Shown here piece by piece: positions 2,513 through 25,251 of a stretch of 25,251 bases of DNA. Source of the DNA: Pseudomonadota bacterium (GTDB taxonomy: Bacteria; Pseudomonadota; Alphaproteobacteria; Rhizobiales; Kaistiaceae). Each line of letters opens with the position of its first letter. Within the stretch, counting starts at the first letter, position 1. The stretch covers positions 1 to 25,251 of the forward strand of contig JAEZEN010000527.1 in assembly GCA_023433185.1 (NCBI GenBank), written 5' to 3'. The translations under genes were made by a program, and so were the position numbers. The notes beneath the pieces were generated by a model. The model had not been told where the DNA came from. It saw only the letters and a list, made by a program, of their open reading frames with translations, and ran no database searches.

Positions 2513-2734
2513 TCAGCCGTCGATCACCACCGCAACCGCGTCGCCGTCGACGTTCTCCTGGCCCTCGCTGACATGCACCGCGGTGACGGTGCCGGCGATG
2601 GGCGCCTCGTGCGGGAACTCCATCTTCATCACCTCCATGATGAAGAGGACGTCGCCCTCCTTGACCGTGTCGCCGGGCTTCACCAGCACCTTCCAGATGT
2701 TGCCGGGCGACTGAGTCCTGACCTCTTCGGCCAT
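2513..2734 (-). CDS. Minimal biotin carboxyl carrier protein
   Basis: This 73-residue protein is a bare biotinyl/lipoyl-attachment domain. The biotinylation motif EVMKM puts the target lysine at residue 37, with the flanking beta turns (P..G.V..GD) of the hammerhead fold. Typical AccB proteins are about twice as long, with an N-terminal arm and linker; here only the carrier domain is made. It follows the biotin carboxylase gene by 29 bp as the last gene of the operon. The role is to carry carboxybiotin from the biotin carboxylase to a carboxyltransferase. No acetyl-CoA carboxyltransferase is nearby. The PxpB/PxpC pair, related to the carboxyltransferase domains of urea carboxylase, is therefore the likely partner (inference). 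Confidence 0.9.
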   Translation of the reverse strand: MAEEVRTQSPGNIWKVLVKPGDTVKEGDVLFIMEVMKMEFPHEAPIAGTVTAVHVSEGQENVDGDAVAVVIDG

Positions 2735-2763
2735 CGTGTACCCTCCGGGAATGGCGGGCGCCG

Positions 2764-4128
2764 TCAGACCGGCGCCAGCAGGTCCGCCTTGTGAACGTCG
2801 AGGAAGTTGGTGAAGGTCCGTCCCGCGACGAAGGCGGGATGGTCGAGCACCGCGCGGAGCAGCGGAAGGTTGGTCGCCGGGCCTTCCACCACGGTATGGG
2901 CGAGCATGGCTCGGCCGCGGGCGATCGCGTCGGCGCGGTCGCTCCCCTTGACGATCAGCTTGGCGATGAGCGGATCGTAGAAGGGCGTGATCGCGTCGCC
3001 TTCTTCGAAGCCGGTGTCGACGCGGAAGCCCTCGCCCGCGGGAAACGAGACCCGGCTGAGCATGCCCGGCGACGGCATGTAGTTCTTCGCCGGATTCTCC
3101 GCATAGACGCGGAGCTCGATGGCATGGCCCTCGGTGCCGATATCGGCCTGGCCGAAGCCCGAAAAGTCGTCGCCGCGGGCGAGCCGAAGCTGCATCTGGA
3201 CGAGGTCCAGCCCGGTGATCATCTCGGTCACGGCATGCTCGACCTGGATGCGGGTGTTCATCTCGAGGAAGTAGAAGGCGCCCGAGGCGTCGTCGTAGAT
3301 GAACTCGACCGTGCCGGCGCGGGCATAGTCCTGGCTCGCGGGGAGGGCCGCGGCCGCCTCGGCCATCCGCGTCCGGGTCGCCGCGTCGAGGGCCGGCGAT
3401 GGGCCCTCCTCGATCACCTTCTGGAAGCGGCGCTGCACCGAGCATTCGCGCTCGTAGAGGTGGACGGCGCGGCCGTTGCCGAAGCCGAAGACCTGGACCT
3501 CGATGTGCCGCGCCGTGGGCACGTAGCGCTCGAGATAGACGGTGGGGTTGCCGAAGGCGCGCTCGGCCATGCCGCGCGTCGCCGCGACGACGGCGGCGAG
3601 GTCTTCGGGGCGGTCGACGCGGCGCATGCCGATGCCGCCGCCGCCGCCGGCCGCCTTGACCAGCAGCGGGAAACCCGTCGCCGTGCCGTGGCCGGCGATC
3701 GCGTCCGCCTCCGCTTCGGCGAAGCGCGGGCTGCCCGGCAGCACCGGGACGCCGGCCTCGGCGGCGATCGCCCGGGCCCGGCCCTTGTCACCCATCGCGG
3801 CGATCGTCGCCGGATCGGGGCCGATCCAGGTCAGGCCGGCCTCGGTGACGGCCCCGGCGAAGTCGGCGTTCTCCGAGAGGAGCCCGTAGCCGGGGTGGAC
3901 GGCGTCGGCCCCGGCCGCGCGGGCGGCCGCAAGCACGGCCTCGACATCGAGATAGCTGCGGTCGACGCGCGACGGCCCGACATGGTGCGCCGCGTCGGCC
4001 AGGCGGACGTGACGCGCGTCGCGGTCGGCATCCGAATAGATGGCGATGGCCTCGATCCCGAGGTCCCGGCAGGCGGCGATGACGCGGCAGGCGATTTCGC
4101 CGCGGTTGGCTACGAGGACTCTCTTCAA
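2764..4128 (-). CDS. Biotin carboxylase subunit (AccC-like)
   Basis: The 454-residue ATP-grasp enzyme uses ATP and bicarbonate to carboxylate biotin on the carrier protein. It starts with the family signature MKRVLVANRGEIACR. The glycine-rich ATP lid KAAGGGGGIGMR (158-169), ERECSVQRR (227-235) and EMNTRIQVEH (289-298) are all present, so the catalytic Glu, Asn, Arg and bicarbonate-site residues are intact. The length matches free-standing AccC. It lies 28 bp after pxpB and 29 bp before the carrier gene, all on one strand. This context suggests a dedicated carboxylase for a PxpABC-type amide substrate rather than the housekeeping acetyl-CoA carboxylase. Confidence 0.92.
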   Translation of the reverse strand: MKRVLVANRGEIACRVIAACRDLGIEAIAIYSDADRDARHVRLADAAHHVGPSRVDRSYLDVEAVLAAARAAGADAVHPGYGLLSENADFAGAVTEAGLTWIGPDPATIAAMGDKGRARAIAAEAGVPVLPGSPRFAEAEADAIAGHGTATGFPLLVKAAGGGGGIGMRRVDRPEDLAAVVAATRGMAERAFGNPTVYLERYVPTARHIEVQVFGFGNGRAVHLYERECSVQRRFQKVIEEGPSPALDAATRTRMAEAAAALPASQDYARAGTVEFIYDDASGAFYFLEMNTRIQVEHAVTEMITGLDLVQMQLRLARGDDFSGFGQADIGTEGHAIELRVYAENPAKNYMPSPGMLSRVSFPAGEGFRVDTGFEEGDAITPFYDPLIAKLIVKGSDRADAIARGRAMLAHTVVEGPATNLPLLRAVLDHPAFVAGRTFTNFLDVHKADLLAPV

Positions 4129-4156
4129 GGGGAATGGTCCGTTTCTTTGGCCTGGA

Positions 4157-4981
4157 CTACGTCTTTCGGCTGGCGAGATAGCCCTTCACGTCGAACGTCT
4201 CGTCGGTGATGCGATACTTGTAGGTGCCGGCCTGGGCCGCTTCCCAGATCTCGTCATATTCGAGGGCGTTGACGTTGAAGTAGCGCAGCCGGTCGCCAGC
4301 CTGAAGCAGGACGCCATCCTCGGGAAAGACCGCCGGAGTCTTCGAGTTGGGCTCGTAGATGTTGACGGCGAGGCGGCCGATGAGCTGGTAGCCTCCCGGG
4401 CTCGCCACCGGGTAGGCGCCGGTCGAGAAGCCGGCCAGCGCCACCAGCCGTGCCGAGGTGAAGCTCCGCGGCGTCCGGTATTTCGGCGCCTTGAGCCTCT
4501 TGGTCGGGTCGAGCGGCAGCGAGAAGTAGCAGCCCGGCGTGAAGCCCACGCAGACGATCCAGTAGTCGGTGCCGGTGTGGCGGGCGATCACCTCGTCGAC
4601 GTCGATCCCGTTGCACTCGGCGACGAAGTCGATGTTCTTCTTGACGTTGAAGCGCTTGGCGAGTTCCGCCGACCACGGGTCGTCGTACCACATCGGCAGT
4701 TCGATCAGCCGCGAAGGCAGGGTGTCGACATCGGCGACGGTCTCCTGGATCGGCATCACCGCCCGCTTCAGCGACTCGTGGTCGGTCTCGAAACGGTCGA
4801 AGAGGAGGCCGAGCTCGCGGAACGACGGGATGATCTCGATGATCCCCGGCACCCCGGCCTTCCTCAGGGCGTCGGCCAGCGCCAGGACCTTGAAGTTGAG
4901 GCTGAGATCGGCCTCGTCGCCGAACTCCACGGCGAGGTAGCAGTCGCCCAGGGGGCGGTAGATCGGCTCGTCGTAGATCAT
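4157..4981 (-). CDS. pxpB: 5-oxoprolinase subunit PxpB / KipI family (AHS1 domain)
   Basis: The 274-residue protein starts at ATG 4981, overlapping the pxpA stop by 4 bp (ATGA); a longer frame to 5023 would run into pxpA and is not chosen. It has the KipI/allophanate-hydrolase-subunit-1 pattern: an N-terminal GDCYLAVEFGDE segment, the central YDDPWS segment, a GFTPGCYFSLPLD loop, a TPR..SARLVALAG stretch and the C-terminal SPGGYQLIGR motif. The family pairs with PxpC to form the ATP-dependent part of 5-oxoprolinase. It is also homologous to one half of the carboxyltransferase region of urea carboxylase. Coupling to biotin genes supports a carboxylating mechanism here, which is inference. The stop codon is TAG. 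Confidence 0.9.
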   Translation of the reverse strand: MIYDEPIYRPLGDCYLAVEFGDEADLSLNFKVLALADALRKAGVPGIIEIIPSFRELGLLFDRFETDHESLKRAVMPIQETVADVDTLPSRLIELPMWYDDPWSAELAKRFNVKKNIDFVAECNGIDVDEVIARHTGTDYWIVCVGFTPGCYFSLPLDPTKRLKAPKYRTPRSFTSARLVALAGFSTGAYPVASPGGYQLIGRLAVNIYEPNSKTPAVFPEDGVLLQAGDRLRYFNVNALEYDEIWEAAQAGTYKYRITDETFDVKGYLASRKT

Positions 4982-5781
4982 GCACTTGCCCTCTGCCGTC
5001 CGTCGTCCGCCGGCGCCTGCCACGCTGCGGCGTTCACCCCTTCCTCGGCGAGGACCGTCCGCACGGTCCGCGCGATGTCGACCGAGTTCGGCCCGTCGCC
5101 GTGAACGCAGATCGTCTCCGCGGCGAGCGGGATCGCCGTGCCCGTCACGGATTCGACGACGCCCTCGGCGAGGAAACGGCGCAGCCGCCGGGCGACGTCC
5201 TCGAGGTCCTTTGCCGTCTTCTTCCGCTCGACGATCAGCTTGGCCTCGTCGGAATAGCCGAGGTCGAAATAGACCTCGCCGACCACGTCGATGCCGAGCG
5301 CTTGCGCCGCCCGCGGCAGGGCGTGCATCTCGACCGGCGCCGGCCAGTAGAGCAGGGGCGCCGGGCAGGTGTCGCGGATCGCCTCGGCCACCGCGGCGGC
5401 GACCTCCTCCTGGTCATGGAGCATGACATAGAGCGCGCCATGCGGCTTGACGTGGTGGAGCGCCTTGCCCCGCGCCGCGAGGAACGCCGAGAGCGCGCCG
5501 ACCTGGTAGACGACCATGGCGTAGGCGTCGTCCGGCGTGATGTCCATCCTGCGGCGGCCGAAGCCGGCGAGGTCCGGGAGGCCGGGATGGGCACCCACCG
5601 CGACGCCATTGTCGGCGGCGAGCGCCACGGTCTTCCGCATCACCAGCGGGTCGCCGCCGTGGAAGCCGCAGGCGACATTGGCCGTGGTGATCAGCGGCAT
5701 GATCGCGTCGTCGGCGCCCATCGGCCAGTTGCCGAAGCTCTCGCCGCAGTCGCAGTTGATGTCGATGCTTGACCGGCTCAT
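4978..5781 (-). CDS. pxpA: 5-oxoprolinase subunit PxpA (LamB/YcsF family)
   Basis: The 267-residue protein starts at ATG 5781, overlapping the pxpC stop by 4 bp. The LamB/YcsF hallmarks are clear: IDINCDCGESFG at the N-terminus, TTANVACGFHGGDP around residue 35, GAHPGLPD, HVKPHGALY and the GDGPNS segment near the C-terminus. PxpA is the subunit thought to carry out ring hydrolysis in the bacterial 5-oxoprolinase PxpABC, converting 5-oxoproline to glutamate with ATP. Related lactamases act on other lactams, so the substrate is not fixed by homology. The translational overlaps on both sides imply equimolar production with PxpB and PxpC. Confidence 0.92.
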   Translation of the reverse strand: MSRSSIDINCDCGESFGNWPMGADDAIMPLITTANVACGFHGGDPLVMRKTVALAADNGVAVGAHPGLPDLAGFGRRRMDITPDDAYAMVVYQVGALSAFLAARGKALHHVKPHGALYVMLHDQEEVAAAVAEAIRDTCPAPLLYWPAPVEMHALPRAAQALGIDVVGEVYFDLGYSDEAKLIVERKKTAKDLEDVARRLRRFLAEGVVESVTGTAIPLAAETICVHGDGPNSVDIARTVRTVLAEEGVNAAAWQAPADDGRQRASA

Positions 5782-6791
5782 GATGCGTCGAGTGCCGCCC
5801 GAGCGTCCTTCAGCCGCTGCCAGATGTCCTTGATGATCGCGATGCCCTCCTCGGCGCGGACCTTGCGGAAGGTGAGTGCCCCTTTCGGCGCGATCTGGCC
5901 CATCTTGCCGAGGTCGGCCGAGATCACCGTGGCGATCTTGGCGTAGCCGCCGGCAGTCGGGTTCTCGACGCCCATGACGATCGGCTCGATGCCGCCCGGC
6001 ACCTGGATGCCGCCGACCGGGATCACGTCGTCGACGATGTCGGCCGGCCCGGAGCCGGCGTCGCGGGTCAGGTAGTCCGGCCGCGGGTGCAGTTCGAGCG
6101 GCGGCCCGACGAGGCGCATGCCCATCCGGTCAGACACCGGCGACAGCTTCCATTCGGTGCCGAGGAACGTGTCGACGCCCTTGGCCGTGAACATGAAGTC
6201 CTGGGGGCCGAGCACGACGCGGATCACGGTCGGTTCCTCGGGAGCGGCGGGCAGGCCGGCGAGGTGGCGCTTGGCGAGCCTCGCCACCGGCGCCGTCGGC
6301 GGGAACGTCTTCAGCCGGTCGCCCTTGCGGAGCGCCCGGCCGTCGAGTCCACCCTGGGAACCGCGCACATAGGTGGCGCGGCTGCCGATGACGAGCGGCA
6401 CGTCGATGCCGCCGGCGATGGCGAGATAGCCGCGGGCGCCCGACTTCACGGTCCCGCATTTCAGCACGCCGCCGGCCGGCACCACGATCGGCCGGAAGCG
6501 CGCGACCGGCGCGCCGGCGTGGGTCGCGGCCATGTCGGCGCCGGCAAGCGCGACGACCGTCTCTTCGGGATAGCGGAGCGCGACGCCCTTCACCAGCATC
6601 TCGATCCCGGCGGCCCCCGGCCCGGCGCGGCTGAGGGGCGGCGGCGTCAGGTCGTTGCCGACGAGCAGATTGGCGATGGCGAGGCTGTAGAAGTCCTGCG
6701 CTCCGGCGGGCGGGATGCCGCGCGACAGGAAGCCGGGACGGCCGCCGTCCTGGATCGTCGACTGCAATCCTCCGTCGAGGACCTCGATCAT
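5778..6791 (-). CDS. pxpC: 5-oxoprolinase subunit PxpC / KipA family (AHS2 domain)
   Basis: The protein has 337 residues with the start at ATG 6791, which has GGAG 7-10 nt upstream and begins MIEVLDGGLQSTIQDGG, the usual family N-terminus. A TTG at 6830 would add 13 residues inside the operator region and is less likely. Family features are the IQDGGRPG start, GIPPAGAQD, NLLVGND, a GYLAIAGGIDVP strand, GSRATYV, the GPQD segment, SDRMGMRL and the GGYAKIATV segment. The protein family is named biotin-dependent carboxyltransferase/KipA and is homologous to the second carboxyltransferase half of urea carboxylase. It is the first gene of a five-gene operon ending in a biotin carrier, and is expressed from the promoter at 6822-6875. 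Confidence 0.9.
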   Translation of the reverse strand: MIEVLDGGLQSTIQDGGRPGFLSRGIPPAGAQDFYSLAIANLLVGNDLTPPPLSRAGPGAAGIEMLVKGVALRYPEETVVALAGADMAATHAGAPVARFRPIVVPAGGVLKCGTVKSGARGYLAIAGGIDVPLVIGSRATYVRGSQGGLDGRALRKGDRLKTFPPTAPVARLAKRHLAGLPAAPEEPTVIRVVLGPQDFMFTAKGVDTFLGTEWKLSPVSDRMGMRLVGPPLELHPRPDYLTRDAGSGPADIVDDVIPVGGIQVPGGIEPIVMGVENPTAGGYAKIATVISADLGKMGQIAPKGALTFRKVRAEEGIAIIKDIWQRLKDARAALDAS

Positions 6792-6970: not shown

Positions 6971-7022
6971 TTGACACCCGCACGGCCTGCGTTTTATAAA
7001 AGGTAAAATGTTTTTACTTTTT
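6971..7022 (+). promoter_or_regulatory. Aldehyde dehydrogenase promoter with long palindromic operator
   Basis: TTGACA at 6971-6976 and TATAAA at 6995-7000 (18 bp spacer; TTATAA at 17 bp also fits) form a near-consensus sigma-70 promoter. Overlapping the -10 and the likely start point is an 11-3-11 inverted repeat at 6998-7022, with arms AAAAGGTAAAA and TTTTACTTTTT and one mismatched pair. A bound repressor would block polymerase. A GAGG ribosome site follows at 7022-7025, 7 nt before the ATG at 7033. Confidence 0.75.
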
Positions 7023-7032
7023 GAGGTTGCCC

Positions 7033-8532
7033 ATGCCGCAGGCAGATGCTGACCAGTCGCGCGTGACCTACGGTCACTGGATCGGCGGCGCGGACCGGGC
7101 GTCGTCGTCGGGTGGGGTCTTTCCGTCCTACAATCCCACCACGGGCACCGTATGGGGCGATTTCGCCCTCGGCGAAAAGACCGATGTCGCGGACGCCGTC
7201 GCGGCGGCCAAGACCGCCTTCGGGACGTGGAAGGCGCTCTCGCCGACCCGCCGCGGCCGGCTCCTGATGCGCTGGGCCGATGCGATCCACGCGAACGCGG
7301 AGAAGATCGGCCGCATCGAGACCTCGCAGAACGGCAAGCTCCTCAACGAGATGGTGCTGCAGGCCCGCATCGTGCCGGACTGGCTCTACTACTATGGCGG
7401 CCTCGCCGACAAGGTCGAGGGACGGGTCATCCCGCTCGACCGGACGTCGGTGCTCAACTACACGCTGCGCGAACCGCTCGGCGTCGTCGGCGTCATCATG
7501 CCGTGGAACTCGCCGCTGTTCCTCGCGATCATGGCGGTCGCCCCGGCGCTCGCCGCCGGCAACACCGTCGTCATCAAGCCGTCGGAGGTGACGCCGGCCT
7601 CGGTCATCGAGGCGGCGCGGCTGGCCGAGGAGATCGGCATCCCGGCCGGCGTCATCAACGTCGTCACCGGCGACCGGGCCACCGGCGAGGCGCTGGTCGA
7701 TCATCCCGACGTTGCCAAGGTCGCCTTCACCGGCGGCGTCGAGGCCGGCCGCGCCATCGGCGCGCGCGCCGCCGCGCGCCTCGCCCACGTCACGCTGGAA
7801 CTCGGCGGCAAGAGCGCCAACATCGTCTTCCCCGACGCCGACATGAAGCAGGCCGAGGCGGGGCTGCTCGCCGGCATCTTCGCCGCCGCCGGCCAGACCT
7901 GTGTCGCCGGCTCGCGGGCGCTGGTCCACAGGAAGATCCGCGACGACGTGCTCGAGATCCTGTCGAAGCGGGCCGCCGGCATCGTCATCGGCGACCCGCT
8001 CGATCCGGCGACGCAGATGGGGCCGGTCGCCTCCAGGGCCCAGCTCGAGAAGGACGAGCGCATGGTCGACCGCGCCGTCGCCGACGGGGCCGAACTGGTC
8101 TTCGGCGGCCGCCGCGCCAACCCGCCCGGCTTCCCCGACGGCTACTTCTTCTCGCCCACCATCCTCGCCAATGTCGCGCCCGACAGCTTCATCGCCCAGA
8201 ACGAGGTGTTCGGGCCGGTGCTGTCGGTGATCCCCTTCGAGGACGAGGAGGAGGCGGTGGCGCTCGCCAACGGCACGCCCTTCGGGCTCGCCGCGGGCGT
8301 CTGGACCCGCGACATCCGCCGCGCCCACCGCATGGCCCGGCAACTGCAGGCCGGCACGGTGTGGATCAACATGTACCGCGGCATGACCTTCAACTCGCCC
8401 TTCGGCGGCTACAAGTCGAGCGGCATCGGCCGCCAGAACGGCATCGAGGCCATCGACCAGTACCTCCAGACCAAGAGCGTTTGGTGCGAGCTCTCCGACG
8501 ACGTCCAGGATCCCTTCGTGATGCGGTCCTGA
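7033..8532 (+). CDS. NAD(P)-dependent aldehyde dehydrogenase
   Basis: The 499-residue ALDH superfamily enzyme oxidises an aldehyde to an acid with NAD(P)+. The ATG at 7033 is chosen because GAGG lies 7 nt upstream; a TTG at 7021 overlaps the operator. Catalytic residues are in place: Asn159 in MPWNSP, Glu256 in LELGGK and nucleophile Cys290 in AGQTCVAGSR, with the usual 34-residue Glu-Cys spacing. The C-terminal EVFGPV and SPFGGYKSSGIGR motifs are present. Length and motifs suit the broad betaine/semialdehyde dehydrogenase groups. It is first in an operon with a class III aminotransferase, so an omega-semialdehyde made by that enzyme is the likely substrate (inference). Confidence 0.93.
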   Translation: MPQADADQSRVTYGHWIGGADRASSSGGVFPSYNPTTGTVWGDFALGEKTDVADAVAAAKTAFGTWKALSPTRRGRLLMRWADAIHANAEKIGRIETSQNGKLLNEMVLQARIVPDWLYYYGGLADKVEGRVIPLDRTSVLNYTLREPLGVVGVIMPWNSPLFLAIMAVAPALAAGNTVVIKPSEVTPASVIEAARLAEEIGIPAGVINVVTGDRATGEALVDHPDVAKVAFTGGVEAGRAIGARAAARLAHVTLELGGKSANIVFPDADMKQAEAGLLAGIFAAAGQTCVAGSRALVHRKIRDDVLEILSKRAAGIVIGDPLDPATQMGPVASRAQLEKDERMVDRAVADGAELVFGGRRANPPGFPDGYFFSPTILANVAPDSFIAQNEVFGPVLSVIPFEDEEEAVALANGTPFGLAAGVWTRDIRRAHRMARQLQAGTVWINMYRGMTFNSPFGGYKSSGIGRQNGIEAIDQYLQTKSVWCELSDDVQDPFVMRS

Positions 8533-8581: not shown

Positions 8582-9943
8582 ATGACATCGCAAGCGGCGC
8601 TCGCCCCGGCCACGGTTTCCTCCCGCAACCGCGCCAAGCGCCACGTCCGTCATTTCCTTGCCGATTTCGCCGCGCTCCAGCGCGAGTATCCCGACGGCTA
8701 CCCCAAGATGATGGTGCGCGGCGAGGGCGCCTATGTGTTCGACGAGGAGGGCAGCCGCCTTTTGGATGCCGGCAGCCATCTCGGCGCCTGCCAGATCGGC
8801 CACGGCCGGGTGGAGATGGCGACGCGCATCGCCGACCAGGTCCGGGAACTCGAGTTCATCGCGCTCGACGCGGGCATCTCGCACATCTACGCGGCCGAGC
8901 TCGCCGAGCGCCTCTCCGGCATCGTGCTCTGCGACGAGCCGGTGTTCTCCTTCACCAATTCCGGCAGCGAATCGAACGAGCTCGCCTTCAAAATCGCGCG
9001 CACCTGGCACGCCCGTCGCGGCGCGCCGGAGCGTACCAAGATCGTCTCCCGCCTCGGTTCCTATCACGGCTCGTCGATCGCAGCTTCCGCCGCCACCGGG
9101 GTCGCCGGCTTCCGGACCGGCTTCGGGCCGCTGGCGCCCGACTTCATCCAGACCGAACCGCCGACCCGGGACGGCTTCGGCCACCGCGAGAAGTCGAATG
9201 CCGAGGAACTGTCCCTGCCGCAGCTCGAGGCACTGATCGCGCGCGAGGGCCCGGAGACGGTCGCCGCCGTCATCGCCGAGCCGATCGCGATACCCGGCGC
9301 GGTCAAGATCCCTCATTCCGACTACTTCGCCGGGCTTCGTCGGATCTGCGACACCTACGGCCTGCTGCTGATCATCGACGAGGTGGTCTGCGGCTTCGGC
9401 CGGACCGGACGGATGTTCGGCGCCGAGCATTTCGGCGTCAAGGGCGACATCGTCACCTACGCCAAGGGGCTGACCAGCGGCTACATCCCGATGGGTGCGG
9501 TCGCGGTCTCGGGCGCGGTCAACGAGGTCTTCGTCAAGGCGCCGCTTCTCCACCTCAACACCTATGCCGGCCACCCGGTGGCCTGTGCGGCGGCCATGGC
9601 GGCGCTCGACGTGACCGAGGACGAGGGGCTCGTCGAGAACGCGGCCGCGATGGAGGAAGTGCTCCGCGACGAGCTGACCCGCATGCGCCAGAGCGTGCCG
9701 CGGATCACCGAGGTGACGGCGATCGGCCTTCTGTCGAGCGTGATCACCGACATCTCCGACCAGCCCGATCCTGACGCGACGGTCCGCAAGCTCCGCAAGG
9801 AGGCCTACGATGCCGGTCTGCTCGTGCGCGTCGCCCGGGACGGGACCAACATGAGCGCGCACTTCTACCCGCCGCTCGTCGTCACCCGGCGCGACATCGA
9901 GGACGGCGTCCGCGCCCTCGAAGTGGCGCTCCGCACGATCTGA
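8582..9943 (+). CDS. Class III PLP aminotransferase (omega-amino acid type)
   Basis: The 453-residue fold-type I enzyme moves an amino group from an amine, omega-amino acid or similar donor to a keto acid. Visible motifs are FTNSGSESNE (PLP phosphate loop), GSYHGSS, Asp266 in IIDEVVCGFGRTG (contact to the pyridine nitrogen) and Lys295 in YAKGLTSG, which forms the Schiff base. The C-terminal segment (FYPPLVVTRRDIEDG) is complete. It lies 49 bp after the aldehyde dehydrogenase gene, and transaminase plus dehydrogenase is a common pair for turning an omega-amino acid into a dicarboxylate. Beta-alanine, GABA or a longer omega-amino acid are all possible substrates; the sequence does not choose among them. 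Confidence 0.9.
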   Translation: MTSQAALAPATVSSRNRAKRHVRHFLADFAALQREYPDGYPKMMVRGEGAYVFDEEGSRLLDAGSHLGACQIGHGRVEMATRIADQVRELEFIALDAGISHIYAAELAERLSGIVLCDEPVFSFTNSGSESNELAFKIARTWHARRGAPERTKIVSRLGSYHGSSIAASAATGVAGFRTGFGPLAPDFIQTEPPTRDGFGHREKSNAEELSLPQLEALIAREGPETVAAVIAEPIAIPGAVKIPHSDYFAGLRRICDTYGLLLIIDEVVCGFGRTGRMFGAEHFGVKGDIVTYAKGLTSGYIPMGAVAVSGAVNEVFVKAPLLHLNTYAGHPVACAAAMAALDVTEDEGLVENAAAMEEVLRDELTRMRQSVPRITEVTAIGLLSSVITDISDQPDPDATVRKLRKEAYDAGLLVRVARDGTNMSAHFYPPLVVTRRDIEDGVRALEVALRTI

Positions 9944-9956
9944 GGACGCCCTTCCC

Positions 9957-11120
9957 ATGCGCATCGTCGACGTCCGCGAAGCCTCCGTCCCGCTCGAGGC
10001 CAACATCCAGAACGCTGTGGTGAGCTTCGCCGACCACACGGTGTCGCTCGTCGCGGTGGTTTCGGACGTGATCCGGAATGGAAAGCCCGTCACCGGAATC
10101 GCCTTCGAATCGATCGGCCGCTACGCCCAGAGCGGGCTCTTGCGCGAGCGCTTCATCCCGCGCCTCCTCAAGGCGAAACCCGAGGATCTGCTCGACGCGG
10201 GCGGCACGGGCATCGACCCCGGCAAGGCCTACCGGGCGATGATGAAGAACGAGAAGCCCGGCGGTCACGGCGACCGCGCGCATGCGGTCGCCGCGGTCGA
10301 GCTGGCGATCTGGGATCTCAATGCCAGGCTCGCCGGCGTGCCCGCCTGGCAGCACATCGCCGAGAGGCACGGCGTCGCGGCGCGGGCGCGGATGCCGGTC
10401 TATGCCGCCGGCGGCTACTACTATCCGGAGGACAGCCTCGGCCGTCTCAAGGACGAGATGAAAGCCTATGGCGACATGGGCTACACGTCGTTCAAGATGA
10501 AGATCGGCGGTGCCCCGCTCGCCGAGGACATGAAGCGCATCGAGGCGGCGCTGTCAGTGGTCGGCGATGCCAGTGTTCTCGCGGTCGACGCCAATGGCCG
10601 CTTCGACACCCCGACCGCGGTGGCCTATGGCCGGGCGATGGCCGATTTCGGCCTCCGCTGGTACGAGGAGCCCGGCGACCCGCTCGACTACCAGCTCATG
10701 GCCGACCTCGCGGCGGTCTACGAGCGCCCGCTCGCCACCGGCGAGAACCTCTTCTCCACCCGCGACGTAGACAACCTCATCCGCCACGGCGGCATGCGGA
10801 AGGGGCACGACCTGTTCCAGATGGACCCGGCGCTCGGCTACGGGCTTGGAGAATTCGCGCGGATGATCGATGCGATGGAGAAGGCCGGCTATTCGCGGGC
10901 CCAGCTCTTCCCGCATGGCGGCCACATGATCGCGCTCCACATCGTGGTCGGGCTCGGCCTCGGTGGGTCGGAAGCCTATCCCGGCGTCTTCGCGCCGGTC
11001 GGCGGCTACGCGCCGGACTGCACGCTCGAGGACGGCGGCATCGCACCGGGCGACCGGCCGGGCTTCGGGCTCGAGGCCAAGCCCGACCTCGCGCCGCATA
11101 TCGCTCGGCTCGTGGCCTAG
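9957..11120 (+). CDS. tarD: Enolase-superfamily dehydratase, D-tartrate dehydratase-like
   Basis: The 387-residue protein is in the mandelate racemase subgroup. The acid/base lysine pair is Lys180/Lys182 in FKMKIGG. Metal ligands are Asp211 (VDANGRF), Glu237 (WYEEPGDP) and Glu263 (TGENLFS), and the partner base is His320 in FPHGGH. As I recall it, the Bradyrhizobium D-tartrate dehydratase TarD uses Lys184, Asp213, Glu239, Glu265 and His322. Every position matches with a constant offset of two, and the length is almost equal (about 389). The expected reaction is Mg-dependent dehydration of a hydroxy acid such as D-tartrate. It follows the aminotransferase by 13 bp, an odd partner for a tartrate enzyme, so a related hydroxy-acid substrate is possible. 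The TAG stop lies inside the adjoining palindromic repeat. Confidence 0.82.
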   Translation: MRIVDVREASVPLEANIQNAVVSFADHTVSLVAVVSDVIRNGKPVTGIAFESIGRYAQSGLLRERFIPRLLKAKPEDLLDAGGTGIDPGKAYRAMMKNEKPGGHGDRAHAVAAVELAIWDLNARLAGVPAWQHIAERHGVAARARMPVYAAGGYYYPEDSLGRLKDEMKAYGDMGYTSFKMKIGGAPLAEDMKRIEAALSVVGDASVLAVDANGRFDTPTAVAYGRAMADFGLRWYEEPGDPLDYQLMADLAAVYERPLATGENLFSTRDVDNLIRHGGMRKGHDLFQMDPALGYGLGEFARMIDAMEKAGYSRAQLFPHGGHMIALHIVVGLGLGGSEAYPGVFAPVGGYAPDCTLEDGGIAPGDRPGFGLEAKPDLAPHIARLVA

Positions 11121-14353: not shown

Positions 14354-14407
14354 CTTTTTCCAGCAGAGCCGAACGATCCACAGACACACCGTTCCAGGAG
14401 GGAAGGA

Positions 14408-15499
14408 ATGACGTCGTTGCGGAAGTTTGCCGCGGTCCTCGGGGTGACCGTATTCTCGCTTGCATCGTATCATGGCCTCGCCAGTGCCCAGGAGATCAAT
14501 GGCGAAGGCAAGGAACTGGTGATGTTCACCATCACCGCGTCCAATGTCTAGGGCGCCACCCAGATGAAGGGCGCCGAGGCCGAGGCCGAAAAGCTCGGCT
14601 ACAAGCTCACCGTCTTCCAGAACAACTTCTCGCAGCCCGAGCAGGACCAGCAGGTCCAGCAGTACATCGCCAGCGGCGCGCAGCCGGCGGCGGTCATCTT
14701 CTGGCCGTGGGTCGCCGACGCCGCGATCAACGACGTCCGCCAGCTCTCGCAGATCGCGCCGGTGATCCAGCTCACCCAGGAGCCGAACGAGCAGTCCTGG
14801 CCCTACGTCCAGGCCTATTCGGGTGCCAACCAGATCCTCATCGGCCGGACCGTCGGCGAGATGCTGCTCCAGGCCCGCGACGCCGCCAAGGCGGCCGGCA
14901 TGGAGTTCAAGAGCCCCGAGGGCAATCTCATCATCTTCCAGCATCCGGAAGGCGAGAAGACCGGCACCGAGCGCTACAAGGGGATGATCGAGGCCACCAA
15001 GGACGCGCCCTTCAACGAGATCCACCTCGAATACGGCGCGAACAGCCCCGAAAGCGGCTACGAGATCGGCAGCCAGGTGATCCCGAAGTTCAAGGGACAG
15101 TTCGACTTCATGTGGGTGTCGAACCAGCAGGCGGCCAACGGCATCATCCGCGCCCTCAAGGAAAACGGTATCGAACCGGGCAAGGACGTCTGGATCGTCT
15201 CGGGCGACTGCTCGGGCTCGCTGGACGCGGTGAAGAACGGCGAGACCTTCGGCACCGGCATCCAGCCGGCGGCGGTCGAGGGCGCGCTCGCGGTCCGCAC
15301 GGCGGCCAAGCTCGTCGCCAACGAGGGCAAGGTCGAAGGCGAGGTCATCCAGATGGAGGTCGCAGCCGAGGCCCCGGCGATCGATCCCGGCCCGCCGGCG
15401 AAGTTCAACTTCATGCCGCATGCTCCGGCGATCGGCGCGGACGGCGTGGCCAATACCCAGATCTGGGGCTACACTGCCGACGAGATCTGCGACAGCTGA
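14408..15499 (+). pseudogene. ABC importer substrate-binding protein interrupted by an in-frame TAG
   Basis: The gene starts at ATG 14408 behind a strong GGAGG. Its first 28 residues form a signal peptide (MTSLRKFAAVLGV...LASA). A TAG at codon 48 (14549-14551) interrupts the frame just after the first beta strand (MFTITASNV); the remaining 315 codons are fully open to TGA 15499. The rest matches periplasmic-binding-protein type 1 (sugar-binding, RbsB-like) proteins: MKGAEAEAEKLGY, a QQVQQYIASGAQPAAVIF segment and the C-terminal NTQIWGYTADEICDS. The only downstream ATG (14564) would lack the signal peptide, leaving a cytoplasmic protein useless for import. The downstream transport genes are intact. 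Either the importer has lost its binding protein, the TAG is an error, or it is read through. Confidence 0.8.
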
Positions 15500-21017: not shown

Positions 21018-23102
21018 TCATGAGGCCGATAGTCCCGCCCCCATGGCCCGGTCGATCCGGGCGAATTCCTTGTTCTCGACCATGACGAAGATTCCTTTCC
21101 CGGCCGAGCGTTCGGCCCACAGCTCGCCGACAAGCCGCTTCTCCTTCGCGTCGTCGGCCGTCGCTATGTGCCCGCCCTTGTATTCGACCACGAGCGAGCG
21201 GCCGTCACGGGTCTGTGCAACGAAATCGGGATAGAACTTGTCCGACGACGTTTGCAGCCAGAAGGAATGCGGCTGGCGCGCCGTATTCCGAACCCATGCC
21301 GTCACGGCCTCGTGGCGTTCCAGATAGACGGCACACTCATACTCCTCGCCGCTCGGCTCCATGTCGCCGATGACGCGAAACAGGTGCTTCCTGAAATCCG
21401 TGCCGCCCTTGTAGGGCTGGTTATAGCCGTAGCGGCTTTCGTCGAAGACAAGTTCCAAGTCCGCACTCGTTTCGAAATCGAGGCTGCTTTGCGGGAATAG
21501 GGCGCGCTCGAAAGCCGTCGCCTCGCGCGCATCGCGGTGCTTGGCGATGACCTTCACAAGCGCTTCCACAAGCCGGAATTTGGCCCGCGCCAGCCCTTCG
21601 ATGCCGAGACCGGTCTTGGCGTCGACAACGTCCAGCGCCTTGGCGATGAACAGCGTTGACGACACGCGCGTAACGTCGCGCCGCGCCGAGAATGGCACGC
21701 GCCGGTCAAGCCAGTTCACGAGCGCATTCTTGGTCCAGCCGCGTTCCTGCAACGCAAGGGCAAGCTGCTCGTGCAGGTCATTGACGAAGGCGAGCGTGAT
21801 CGCTCCGGCCGTATCAACGTCCACATGGGCTTCGTCGGCCGCACGCTTCGGCGGCTCGAAATAATCGAGGATCGGAGCCGGGTCGGCCTCTTCCAGTTTC
21901 CACGGAATATCGAGGAAGTGGGCGCGGTCGAATAGTTGAAGCCCGCTCGCCGAGCGCACGCCGAGGCGAGGCACCGCGAAGCGGATCGCCGGCGCGCCAT
22001 CGTCCACCGCCTTCAGGCGAGCTCCACGCGATTTGTGCACGAGCGCTTCGACGGCCTTCTCCGCGCCGGGCATCGCCAGCAGCAGCGCCGTGCGGTCATA
22101 GTCACTGAGCGCGCCCCGCGCCCGGATCACGCCCGTTGCCACGTCCACTTCGACCCGGCCGCCGGTCGCGCCTTCCACGTTGGTCTTGAACGTGTCCGCG
22201 GCGGCTCCTTCGGGAAGCGGTTCTTCGAACACATAGGCCGTCCCGCCCTCTTCCATGCCGGGCAGCGAGTCAGGCGCGAGGTGCACCAGTGCCTTGGCTT
22301 CGACCCGTTCGAAGCCGTTGTTCACGAGCCCGTCGCGAAGCGTGTTCGCCGCGTTCTGAAAGCTCGTGGTCGTGGCGAAGGCATAGGCGCGATTCAGGTC
22401 TTCGCGCTTCTTGCGCTTGGCGCGCGGCAGCCGGAGCACGCGGCCAAGAAGCTGCTCCACCGCGCGTGGCGACTTCTGTTCGGCGACCGAACACAGCACA
22501 TAGGCAAAGGAGCAATCCCAGCCTTCGCGAAGCGCCTGTTGCGTGATGATGAATCGCACCTTGCATTCGCGGTCGAATAGATCGACGCCATCAAGCCCTT
22601 TCGAGTCGCCCGTCGCGATGACGGTATGTTCGGCCGGAACGCGGAAGTCTTCGACAAGCAGCTTCTTCACTTCCTCCGCATGCAGCGTCGGCTTTGCCTG
22701 GGACTTCGGTTCGGCCTGCACGAGCATGACCGGCCGCACGAACTCGCCGGTCTCGGCTTCTTCGGCGGCTGCGGTTGCAGCCAACTCATCAAGCCATGCG
22801 ATGGCATCGCCGATGGTATCGCGCGGTTCCGGCCGCCCGCGAAGGATCACCGGCAGCTTGATCATGTCGGCCGCCTTCAGTTCGGCAGCCGAGACGTGAT
22901 GCAGCACGTTGGAAGCGTATATGCCCTTCGCCGGGTTGGCTTCGTCAGGCGTGACCGGCGTCGCGGTGAACTCCACGATCACGGACGGGCTGACCAGACC
23001 AGCGTACGCGCGTCCACAGATGGTCATTGCGGCTGTGGTGATGCCGGCCGTCTTCGCCACGCGGGCGAGCGCTTCGGAAGCGCTGATCCATTCCCCATCC
23101 AT
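21018..23102 (-). CDS. Type III restriction enzyme R subunit, N-terminally truncated
   Basis: The 694-residue frame starts at ATG 23102 with no ribosome site; a TGA lies 14 codons upstream in frame. Helicase superfamily 2 motif III (EFTATP, 44-49), motif V (ALREGWD, 190-196) and motif VI (RAVEQLLGRVLR, 213-224) are present. A C-terminal PD-(D/E)xK nuclease is seen: Pro625-Asp626 and Glu640-x-Lys642 in VVEYKGG. Walker A and the DEAD-type motif II, which should lie some 200-300 residues upstream, are absent. Recognisable homology seems to begin at PSVIVEFTATP (about residue 39). Full-length Res subunits are about 900-1000 residues. Without motifs I and II, ATP-driven translocation should be lost. 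No methyltransferase partner is in the window. It is probably a decaying remnant, though the nuclease core could still be made. Confidence 0.8.
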   Translation of the reverse strand: MDGEWISASEALARVAKTAGITTAAMTICGRAYAGLVSPSVIVEFTATPVTPDEANPAKGIYASNVLHHVSAAELKAADMIKLPVILRGRPEPRDTIGDAIAWLDELAATAAAEEAETGEFVRPVMLVQAEPKSQAKPTLHAEEVKKLLVEDFRVPAEHTVIATGDSKGLDGVDLFDRECKVRFIITQQALREGWDCSFAYVLCSVAEQKSPRAVEQLLGRVLRLPRAKRKKREDLNRAYAFATTTSFQNAANTLRDGLVNNGFERVEAKALVHLAPDSLPGMEEGGTAYVFEEPLPEGAAADTFKTNVEGATGGRVEVDVATGVIRARGALSDYDRTALLLAMPGAEKAVEALVHKSRGARLKAVDDGAPAIRFAVPRLGVRSASGLQLFDRAHFLDIPWKLEEADPAPILDYFEPPKRAADEAHVDVDTAGAITLAFVNDLHEQLALALQERGWTKNALVNWLDRRVPFSARRDVTRVSSTLFIAKALDVVDAKTGLGIEGLARAKFRLVEALVKVIAKHRDAREATAFERALFPQSSLDFETSADLELVFDESRYGYNQPYKGGTDFRKHLFRVIGDMEPSGEEYECAVYLERHEAVTAWVRNTARQPHSFWLQTSSDKFYPDFVAQTRDGRSLVVEYKGGHIATADDAKEKRLVGELWAERSAGKGIFVMVENKEFARIDRAMGAGLSAS

Positions 23103-23943: not shown

Positions 23944-25209
23944 CTAGACCCGACCGGATCGAGGCAGCGGGATGACCATCGCCCCGGCCCGCAGGGTGTC
24001 CAGGTGGTCGCTCCACCACTGCGCCATGGCGACGCGCTCGTTCCAGTGCGCGCCGCGATGGTAGGCGGCGCGGACATTGTCGCCGTCCTTGTGGGCCAGT
24101 GCCCGTTCGATCGCGTCGGGCGACCACTTGCCGGACTCGTTCAGTAGTGTGCTCGCCATCGCTCGGAAGCCGTGCGCCGTCATCTCGTCGGCCGCGAAGC
24201 CCATCCGCCGCAGGGCCTGCGTGATGGTATTTTCCGAAAGCGGGCGTTCGCCGTTGCCGATCGCCGGGAAGATGAAGCGCCCGTCACCGGAGAGCGCCCG
24301 CGCGCGCTCCAGGATCGCGAGCGACTGACGGGAGAGCGGCACGACGTGCTCGCGCCGCTTCTTCATCCGCGAGGCCGGCACGCGCCAGACAGCCGCGTCG
24401 AAATCCACCTCGCCCCATTCAGCCTGCCGCAACTCGCCCGGCCGGACGAATACATGCGGCAACAGCTCCATGGCGAGCTTGGTGGCCGGCTGGCCCTCGT
24501 AGCCGTCAATGGCGCGCAAGAGGTCGCCCGCGCGCTTCGCGTCGATGATCGCGGCGAGGTGCTTCGCCTTGGGGGCTGCGACCGCGCCGAGCAGCAGCGA
24601 TGCCGGGTCGGACTTGGCGCGGGCCGTCGCCACCGCGTAGCGGAAAACGCGGCTGGCAAAGGCCCGGGTCCGCTTGGCGGTTTCGAGGTTGCCGGCCGCT
24701 TCCTGCCGCTTGAGCACCGCAAGCACTTCGTGCGGCTCGATCTGGTCGACCGGGCGCGAGCCGATCGCCGGCAACAGCCACTCCCGCGACCAGCGCAGCT
24801 TGGCCACGGTGGCGGGCGACTTGCCCTCGCGCTCGCACTTCTCGACGTATTCAAGCGCCACGTCGCCGAACGTCGTCCCGACCGCGATCTTCGCCACGAT
24901 GCGCTGCCGGCGCTTCGCGGCTGCAGGATCGTCGCCACCGGCGACGGCTTCGCGGGCATTGTCGCGCAGCTTGCGGGCCGCGCTCAGCGTCAGGTCGGGA
25001 TAGCGGCCGAGGGAGAGCTTCTTTTCGAGGCCGTGGACGCGGTACTTGAGCCGCCACAGCCTGCCACCGGACGGTGTGACCAGAAGGTAAAGGCCCCCGC
25101 TATCGGCCAGCTTGTAATCCCGGTCGCGGGGCGTTGCGTTGCGGACTGGGATATCGGTGAGCGCCCTCTGTTCCTGCCGATCTGAAAAGGCCCCCAAAAA
25201 GGCCCCCAC
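23944..25209 (-). CDS. P4-type tyrosine recombinase (integrase)
   Basis: The protein has 421 residues if it starts at GTG 25209. It has the DUF4102-type N-terminal arm-binding domain (DIPVRNATPRDRDYKLADSGGLYLLV, LGRYPDLTL.AAR), a SAM-like core-binding domain and a full catalytic domain: Arg256 (VRPGELR), His346-x-x-Arg349 (HGFR), His373 (AHK) and Tyr383 (AAYHRG). It should integrate and excise the element. The start is uncertain: GTG 25209, TTG 25197 and TTG 25233 are all possible. Relatives usually begin just before the ALTD-like segment, where no start codon exists here. The GTG and the next 7 codons (GAFLGAF) are encoded by the right 22-bp repeat. Confidence 0.88.
   Translation of the reverse strand: MGAFLGAFSDRQEQRALTDIPVRNATPRDRDYKLADSGGLYLLVTPSGGRLWRLKYRVHGLEKKLSLGRYPDLTLSAARKLRDNAREAVAGGDDPAAAKRRQRIVAKIAVGTTFGDVALEYVEKCEREGKSPATVAKLRWSREWLLPAIGSRPVDQIEPHEVLAVLKRQEAAGNLETAKRTRAFASRVFRYAVATARAKSDPASLLLGAVAAPKAKHLAAIIDAKRAGDLLRAIDGYEGQPATKLAMELLPHVFVRPGELRQAEWGEVDFDAAVWRVPASRMKKRREHVVPLSRQSLAILERARALSGDGRFIFPAIGNGERPLSENTITQALRRMGFAADEMTAHGFRAMASTLLNESGKWSPDAIERALAHKDGDNVRAAYHRGAHWNERVAMAQWWSDHLDTLRAGAMVIPLPRSGRV
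25187..25208. repeat. 22-bp direct repeat, right copy
   Basis: It is identical to 20953-20974. It covers the first codons of the integrase, which translate as GAFLGAF. The remaining 25209-25251 shows no gene or RNA end that I can identify. Confidence 0.7.
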
Positions 25210-25251
25210 ATTGCACCGGCTGTTGGCGAACAAATGCGAACGACGCCGGGC

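Follow-up and report, generated by a model that had tools for sequence, protein, structure and literature searches.

A five-gene pxpABC-biotin operon from a Kaistiaceae bacterium as a candidate split urea-carboxylase-type system for opening cyclic amides

Introduction

Why would a gene set resembling the 5-oxoprolinase PxpABC be accompanied by a biotin carboxylase and a biotin carrier of its own? The question is raised by five genes at positions 2513-6791, minus strand, of contig JAEZEN010000527.1 (assembly GCA_023433185.1), a 25,251-nt sequence from a Kaistiaceae bacterium (Alphaproteobacteria, Rhizobiales) that is called the window below. The genes encode homologs of PxpC, PxpA, and PxpB, a biotin carboxylase (BC), and a free biotin carboxyl carrier protein (BCCP). 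The reading that we favor, with moderate confidence, is that their products would form a split urea-carboxylase-type biotin carboxylase that N-carboxylates a cyclic amide, broadly defined, which PxpA then opens.

Classic PxpABC is encoded by ybgJ, ybgK, and ybgL in Escherichia coli (YbgJ/YbgK/YbgL) and corresponds to KipI/KipA/YcsF in Bacillus subtilis; the window operon holds homologs of all three proteins. Urea carboxylase (EC 6.3.4.6; Kluyveromyces lactis KlUC/KlUA, PDB 3va7 and 5i8i; bacterial Uca) is assembled from the same BC, CT_A_B, CT_C_D, and BCCP parts as the window proteins. In 2011, Lombard and Moreira asked whether free halves of the urea carboxylase transferase serve other biotin carboxylases or derive from another reaction, and they noted that no functional data then existed for these halves (PMC3199775). 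The literature searched yielded no function for the five-gene cassette, and open-access titles and abstract openings yielded no description of the gene set as a biotin-dependent cyclic-amide hydrolase.

Results

Anatomy and identity of the operon

The operon and two of its key codons are arranged as follows.

6791-5778, minus strand: pxpC, 337 amino acids (aa); CT_A_B, 264 bits (Pfam); PxpC-like half of a urea-carboxylase-type carboxyltransferase
5781-4978, minus strand: pxpA, 267 aa; LamB_YcsF (PF03746), 296 bits (Pfam); hydrolase family
4981-4157, minus strand: pxpB, 274 aa from the likely ATG; CT_C_D, 168 bits; PxpB-like half of a urea-carboxylase-type carboxyltransferase
4128-2764, minus strand: BC gene, 454 aa with a TTG start as listed; Biotin_carb_N, CPSase_L_D2, and Biotin_carb_C (Pfam)
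2734-2513, minus strand: BCCP gene, 73 aa; Biotin_lipoyl (Pfam), EVMKME motif; free biotin carrier
4481-4483, minus strand: codon of PxpB Lys167, the probable general base of the carboxyltransferase, aligned to Lys1605 of the K. lactis urea amidolyase
2624-2626, minus strand: codon of BCCP Lys37 (MKM), the expected biotinylation site

The pxpC/pxpA and pxpA/pxpB junctions are 4-nt ATGA overlaps, each start lying over the preceding stop, and gaps of 28 and 29 nt separate pxpB from the BC gene and the BC gene from the BCCP gene, so that by anatomy the set is a single operon. All five reading frames are intact, and the Pfam scores of the five proteins clearly exceed the cut-offs. The original prediction of five overlapping or closely spaced genes, ending in a 73-residue carrier, is borne out on the minus strand at these positions. 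The nearest genome loci, from metagenome-assembled genomes (MAGs) of Bauldia (L009 and L010), hold the same five genes in the same order, the L010 PxpC being cut by the contig end; in the genome scan, window PxpB was 94% and 91% identical to its counterparts at two Bauldia sp. MAG loci.

PxpA is a normal member of its family: it scores 300 bits against NF003814 (cut-off, 226), also exceeds the cut-off of PF03746, and matches four solved PxpA-family chains. For PxpB and PxpC, the urea carboxylase model outscores the PxpB and PxpC equivalog models, against which they stay under the cut-offs (PxpB, 99.3 versus 145.55 bits for TIGR00370; PxpC, 171.6 versus 500 bits for NF045499); PxpC passes the broader domain model TIGR00724 (239.1 versus 230.2 bits). 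The four separate chains score 543.9, 205.5, 135.8, and 53 bits against the single-chain urea carboxylase model TIGR02712, below its cut-off of 1303.85 bits. BC reaches 523.6 of the 626.5 bits set for the AccC equivalog TIGR00514 and BCCP 33.1 of the 115.2 bits set for the AccB equivalog TIGR00531. BC matches solved biotin carboxylases, and the best PDB match of BCCP is the biotin/lipoyl attachment protein 1z6h. A BC, a BCCP with the MKM motif, and a carboxyltransferase, the general makeup of a biotin-dependent carboxylase, are therefore found within one operon. The structural model of PxpB aligns with yeast urea carboxylase over its full length.

On these model cut-offs, we rejected filing the set as urea carboxylase proper or as classic PxpABC, although it may still work like either of them. 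An acetyl-CoA carboxylase reading was rejected as well: the transferase is of the wrong type, and BC and BCCP fall below the AccC and AccB cut-offs.

A lysine shared with urea carboxylase

In urea amidolyase, Lys1605 of the carboxyltransferase is most likely the essential general base, and the K1605A substitution severely inhibits the enzyme (PMC5770610). Sequence alignment, with the numbering checked on the PxpB model match, identifies its equivalent as the lysine of APKYRTPR, residue 167 of the 274 in window PxpB. Lysine fills this position in 107 of 108 urea-carboxylase-like PxpB proteins and true urea carboxylases (the lone exception, at L063, has threonine), and arginine fills it in 73 of 73 classic PxpB proteins gathered; these totals include duplicates of at least two places (L009 with L272 and L030 with L270) and depend on how the classes were sorted, because the sorting used a hidden Markov model of the same protein. 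Among 172 complete PxpB/PxpC pairs, PxpB Asp101, Lys167, Tyr168, Thr175, and Tyr198 are each present in 101/101 cassette-type pairs and 6/6 urea carboxylases, versus 2, 0, 0, 4, and 0 of 65 classic pairs, respectively. PxpC Asp254 follows the same pattern (100/101, 6/6, and 0/65).

The profile scores, the PxpB model, and the general-base lysine together back the earlier proposal that PxpB and PxpC are urea-carboxylase-type halves and that all urea carboxylase functions are present on separate chains. Because those functions are all there and PxpB and PxpC are of that type down to the lysine, the operon is best read as encoding a biotin-dependent carboxylase that is coupled to PxpA.

Linkage to biotin genes across genomes

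We surveyed genomes sampled by class around four center genomes, with class labels inferred from the centers. PxpA was present in 13/58, 39/51, 8/66, and 29/60 genomes of the four classes, centers counted. PxpA matches outside the centers, taken with flanks of at most 6 kb, gave 94 loci (13 from Alphaproteobacteria, 45 from Bacilli, 7 from Gammaproteobacteria, and 29 from Actinomycetes); six loci of the four center genomes are left out. Urea-carboxylase-like PxpB was encoded at eight loci, all with a BCCP gene and four also with a BC gene, whereas 65 of the 71 loci with classic PxpB had no biotin genes nearby. The other six classic loci had BC and BCCP (four loci), BC (one), or BCCP (one). Two further loci had PxpC only, and 13 had neither PxpB nor PxpC nearby, one of these with a BCCP. 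The association of PxpB type with biotin linkage gives a Fisher P value of 1.2e-7, which ignores kinship, and some survey contigs are short (e.g., L184, L251, and L267), so that missing neighbors may lie past their ends.

Such a neighborhood survey had been proposed as a check on the prediction, and in the sampled genomes it gave linkage at 8/8 urea-carboxylase-like loci versus 6/71 classic ones. The accompanying contrast with a classic PxpABC that lacks dedicated biotin subunits stands for 65 of the 71 classic loci and breaks down for the six with BC and/or BCCP; the mycobacterial pair of PDB 9yx5, described below, blurs it further. In Bacilli, four loci (L198, L214, L215, and L271) combine classic Arg-type PxpB/PxpC with BCCP, BC, and PxpA and are a second, separate kind of biotin linkage.

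A genome scan gave at least 576 loci, of which the best 80 were analyzed; this set is biased because the query was derived from the cassette, and the 94-locus survey is less so. All five families occur together at 65 of the 80 loci, and therefore the grouping is more than chance. The remaining 15 comprise five with PxpA, PxpB, and PxpC only, five with PxpB and PxpC only, three lacking only BC, one lacking only PxpA, and one with PxpB only, some of them cut by contig ends. The complete loci include representatives of Pseudomonadota, Actinomycetota, Bacillota, Chloroflexota, and Haloarchaea. The exact order PxpA-BCCP-BC-PxpB-PxpC is found in 41 of the 65, with varied orders otherwise, and the window order, PxpC-PxpA-PxpB-BC-BCCP, is shared only by L009 and L010 among these best 80. 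Metagenomes hold the window type in some number: searching them at the protein level returned 290 relatives at E ≤ 1e-30, with 61 to 92% identity among the 120 matches listed, and a search of viral contigs gave no match.

Other arrangements were seen along the way. On the Thermomicrobium roseum megaplasmid (L001:5646-9376), BCCP, PxpB, PxpC, and PxpA genes are followed by a gene for the biotin transporter BioY and preceded by a sugar-type ABC transporter and a xanthine-dehydrogenase-family gene, with no BC seen in 12.8 kb. At five Bacillota loci (L029, L034, L039, L049, and L080), a second urea-carboxylase-like PxpB/PxpC pair lies a few kilobases from the cassette.

Transferase and biotin carboxylase trees

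In a FastTree phylogeny of PxpB plus PxpC (172 pairs), the cassette-type pairs fall together with the true urea carboxylases in a single 107-member group (support, 1.0). This group consists of the window type (four tips, two of them being one Bauldia locus), an 85-tip group with the common cassette, and an 18-tip group (support, 0.949), inside which the six urea carboxylases nest with Thermomicrobium and actinobacterial cassettes (support, 0.993). The window-type sequences lie outside the urea carboxylase clade as a separate, long-branched lineage, whose place as first branch has a FastTree support of only 0.592. IQ-TREE with 68 of the 172 pairs gave a modest UFBoot value of 81 for the whole group and 100 for urea carboxylases with the Thermomicrobium and actinobacterial cassettes; both trees were rooted on one classic tip. 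Because urea carboxylases are nested among split cassettes, the single-chain enzyme seems to have arisen by fusion from split ancestors.

The tree of BC (108 sequences) does not repeat this picture. Its 81 cassette BCs are scattered in groups of 33, 23, 10, 8, 4, 2, and 1, with weak deep nodes, and the haloarchaeal cassette group adjoins a further BC encoded in one of the genomes that contribute to it (support, 1.0). Since the BCs of cassettes and urea carboxylases do not group as one clade, the five proteins were not simply passed on together. We rejected a single shared history, since the transferase tree joins cassette pairs with urea carboxylases and the BC tree scatters them; repeated recruitment of BC would explain this, or else too weak a signal in the tree.

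The trees also bear on the claim that the locus is a distinct variant. Its lineage is separate; the five-gene set as such is not a one-off, being widespread and resembling a Staphylococcus aureus operon already in print.

Housekeeping biotin genes and paralog-rich genomes

The Bauldia MAGs G001 and G002 have five and six BC matches, respectively. In G002, an AccB above the cut-off adjoins a BC on another contig, away from the cassette; in G001, no AccB reaches the AccB cut-off anywhere in the MAG, perhaps because the MAG is incomplete. G001 has a complete biotin cassette of the window type (L272) and another of the common type (L182). In a Halomonas genome (G004), three separate places are occupied by accB next to a BC gene, by a biotin cassette, and by a classic pxpABC. 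Of 385 genomes sampled from the class of the window, the center counted, six have relatives of window PxpB at E ≤ 1e-45.

Four of these six genomes, all alphaproteobacterial (G263, G549, G378, and G471), encode 4, 6, 5, and 5 CT_A_B proteins, respectively, and each has two or three PxpA and four or five BC proteins in all. The 16 loci taken from them (L303-L310 and L312-L319) cover 17 of the 20 CT_A_B places, the other three sitting on contigs without a BC match. A transferase pair stands beside BC and BCCP at three of these loci, L312 (G263), L315 (G549), and L308 (G378, without PxpA), and at none in G471; at most one such pair per genome was found, on contigs that are short and whose ends may hide some partners. 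G549 has another BC about 13 kb from its window-type pair. Since each genome carries four to six transferase pairs and few lie beside BC and BCCP, several pairs may share these two proteins. Hydantoinase A is also among the neighbors of pairs in these genomes, and homologs of an enolase-superfamily (MR/MLE) enzyme encoded in the window, 52 to 53% identical to it, adjoin the pairs in L310 (~5836) and L318 (~1568).

Discussion

How the five proteins may work together

The family memberships suggest a sequence of steps. BC would use ATP and bicarbonate to form carboxybiotin on the free BCCP, and PxpB with PxpC would act as the carboxyltransferase, with PxpB Lys167 as general base. That BC, BCCP, and PxpB/PxpC form one biotin carboxylase is, in our judgment, very probable. 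The carboxyl group would probably be placed on a nitrogen, namely that of a cyclic amide; lactams are the most likely kind and, as a putative substrate class, are slightly favored. PxpA likely acts on the product of the predicted carboxylase: it would hydrolyze the activated N-carboxy amide, and loss of CO2 would leave the ring-opened amino acid. This amino acid may then pass to a divergently encoded class III aminotransferase and aldehyde dehydrogenase, a neighborhood that is kept in one Bauldia relative. The degrees of confidence attached to these steps are not independent of each other.

Evidence on both sides

Several observations weigh against such a scheme. Judged on sequence only, archaeal PH0987 is the top-scoring solved relative of PxpB (102 bits, residues 21 to 252), with urea carboxylase behind it (77 bits, residues 19 to 284), and the model of PxpC fits urea amidolyase and classic YbgK equally well. 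Classic Arg-type pairs are also found beside BC and BCCP, which makes the lysine an imperfect sign of biotin linkage. Conversely, 11 of 106 urea-carboxylase-like PxpB proteins, true urea carboxylases excluded, lie more than 7 kb from any BC or BCCP seen; 10 of the 11 carry Lys and 1 carries Thr. At four of these loci (L012, L016, L042, and L062), the sequence extends for about 10 kb in both directions, and some others are cut by contig ends. Two window-type relatives with 64 to 65% identity (L303 and L304) stand without PxpA, BC, and BCCP in stretches of 13.5 and 18.4 kb. The BCs of cassettes and urea carboxylases do not form one clade. Finally, paralogous pairs occur near beta-keto-acid cleavage enzymes (L310 and L317), a coenzyme A (CoA) transferase (L306), and hydroxyisobutyrate-type dehydrogenases (L306, L313, and L318), and such neighbors hint that the transferase family extends beyond lactams.

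The last point leads to a rival in which the transferase pair carboxylates carbon, such as that of a keto acid or ketone, and the bond on which PxpA works is a different one. The keto-acid, CoA transferase, and dehydrogenase neighbors all speak for it, as does the MR/MLE enzyme beside the pairs in L310 and L318. However, those pairs lack PxpA in the stretches covered, whereas the window cassette includes PxpA with 4-nt overlaps, and the nearest known transferase works on the nitrogen of urea; we regard carbon carboxylation as improbable here. We also think it unlikely that the operon encodes a split version of a genuine urea (or guanidine-like) carboxylase, with PxpA replacing allophanate hydrolase. 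The preference of PxpB and PxpC for the urea carboxylase model over the equivalog models, the retained general-base lysine, and the nesting of true urea carboxylases within the split family would agree with it, and an annotated amidase lies two genes from the Haladaptatus cassette. Against this, the window type falls outside the urea carboxylase clade, a Pfam scan of 22 window proteins found no Amidase or AtzF domain for an allophanate hydrolase partner, and the PxpA family is tied to a lactam substrate, 5-oxoproline (PMC13274462).

A more conventional account would have an ordinary ATP-dependent 5-oxoprolinase PxpABC sharing its operon with an extra BC and BCCP for fatty acid synthesis. The unexceptional PxpA fits this account, a housekeeping AccB pair was not found in the Bauldia MAG G001, and accB and accC of an S. 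aureus operon are listed under fatty acid synthesis (PMC11315280). It fits poorly with the recurrence of the biotin linkage across phyla in varied gene order, and with a PxpB that scores under its model cut-off and has Lys instead of Arg. An AccA/AccD-type carboxyltransferase domain was likewise not found among the 22 proteins scanned with Pfam, and both Bauldia G002 and Halomonas G004 have an AccB above the cut-off next to a BC away from the cassette. We give this account little credence and continue to prefer a biotin-dependent N-carboxylase coupled to PxpA.

A wider scheme is tentative, with the odds rather against it. Urea-carboxylase-type pairs might form a modular superfamily in which free pairs share BC and BCCP and have substrates of their own, with urea carboxylase arising by fusion and an exchange of PxpA for allophanate hydrolase, and classic PxpABC might use carboxybiotin in trans. 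The several pairs per genome could then act on ring nitrogen where PxpA is present and perhaps on carbon acids beside keto-acid enzymes.

Comparison with known systems

The likeness of the window to urea carboxylase, end to end in the PxpB model and in the conserved lysine, is set off by four chains instead of one, PxpA in place of allophanate hydrolase, and a lineage outside the urea carboxylase clade. Relative to classic PxpABC, the PxpA passes the NCBIfam PxpA cut-off, but the PxpB stays under its cut-off, has a longer C terminus and Lys instead of Arg, and is joined by dedicated BC and BCCP. The five-gene cassettes of Rhizobium leguminosarum, Thioclava, and Haladaptatus have the same five families with urea-carboxylase-like PxpB/PxpC, and the window differs from the common cassettes in its gene order and its long-branched separate lineage.

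PA0492, PA0495, and PA0496 of Pseudomonas aeruginosa we take to be pxp-type genes. In the PA0492-PA0496 region, hypothetical genes adjoin those for a carboxylase subunit and a protein that requires biotin (PMC5521831 and PMC6249292); PA0492-PA0495 is reported as a gene list (PMC5521831), and PA0493 and PA0494 of the PA0493-PA0496 operon are called of unknown precise function (PMC6249292). The S. aureus six-gene operon, in print as a gene list with pxpB, pxpC, pxpA, accB, and accC, combines pxp genes with a biotin carboxylase and carrier as the window does, and its accB and accC are read there as fatty acid synthesis genes (PMC11315280). Three presumably staphylococcal-like loci of our survey (L198, L214, and L215) have classic Arg-type PxpB, unlike the Lys type of the window.

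PDB 9yx5 (released 2025-11-26), by its title and chain lists, contains the classic PxpC/PxpB pair MSMEG_0435-MSMEG_0436 of Mycobacterium smegmatis bound to the long-chain acyl-CoA carboxylase complex, one chain of which is AccA3, and so a pair together with a biotin-dependent carboxylase, loosely as in the window. This agrees with the notion that classic pairs, too, make contact with biotin enzymes; no paper on the entry was found in the literature searched. To our knowledge, no dedicated BC or BCCP gene lies beside this M. smegmatis pair. Caprolactamase CapAB may serve as a functional precedent, being a bicarbonate-dependent lactamase of another, unrelated family (hydantoinase/oxoprolinase), and is comparable only in how it works: its lactam opening depends on ATP and bicarbonate, lactam carboxylation is among the mechanisms its authors propose, and the excerpt describes no role for biotin (PMC8453981).

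If the favored reading is right, biotin-dependent N-carboxylation would be a widespread route for opening cyclic amides that resist cleavage, many current annotations as "5-oxoprolinase" or "acetyl-CoA carboxylase" would be wrong, and the origin of urea carboxylase would become traceable. The Lys/Arg split and the linkage to BC and BCCP make the question posed by Lombard and Moreira directly testable for one branch of the family. Such enzymes could also serve lactam chemistry, including that of nylon precursors.

Window neighborhood and substrate clues

Three genes divergent from the cassette or following in the same direction lie closest to pxpC.

7021-8532, plus strand: aldehyde dehydrogenase (Pfam Aldedh), divergent from the cassette; 91% in L009; possible downstream step
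8582-9943, plus strand: class III aminotransferase (Pfam Aminotran_3); 90% in L009; possible downstream step
9957-11120, plus strand: enolase-superfamily (MR/MLE) enzyme (Pfam MR_MLE_C); 91% in L009

If a lactam were opened to give an omega-amino acid, an aminotransferase and an aldehyde dehydrogenase would be the expected next steps. Farther along the window are a GntR regulator, a sugar-type ABC transporter, a short-chain dehydrogenase/reductase (SDR), and an alpha/beta hydrolase. By tblastn, L009 keeps the ABC ATPase, binding protein, GntR, MR/MLE, aminotransferase, and aldehyde dehydrogenase genes at 89 to 91%, and most of the neighborhood was recovered only there among 88 loci; absences exclude the perm1 and ABhyd queries, whose frames were wrong or partial.

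Beyond the window, 86 open reading frames (ORFs) were chosen for Pfam from 185 candidates at 52 loci. LysR regulators were the commonest neighbors (7/86), followed by HTH_30 and PucR (four and three), by XdhC, MobA-like proteins, sigma-54 activators, and ABC and sugar-type binding proteins (three each), by BioY and hydantoinase A (two each), and by one amidase and one class III aminotransferase. These neighbors are too mixed for a substrate to be named from the scan.

The remaining features of the window are minor. An 8-oxoguanine deaminase gene at 1050-2465 (NF006055, 626 bits; cut-off, 532) is convergent with the operon, was not found in L009 by tblastn, and is probably unrelated to the operon. 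A gene for a sugar-type binding protein (Peripla_BP_4) at 14400-15499 has an in-frame TAG after a signal-peptide-like start, a mutation or a sequencing error. At 21018-23102, a 694-aa ORF without a Pfam match lies next to a phage-type tyrosine integrase gene (23944-25233) at the end of the window, and the two possibly mark the edge of a mobile island.

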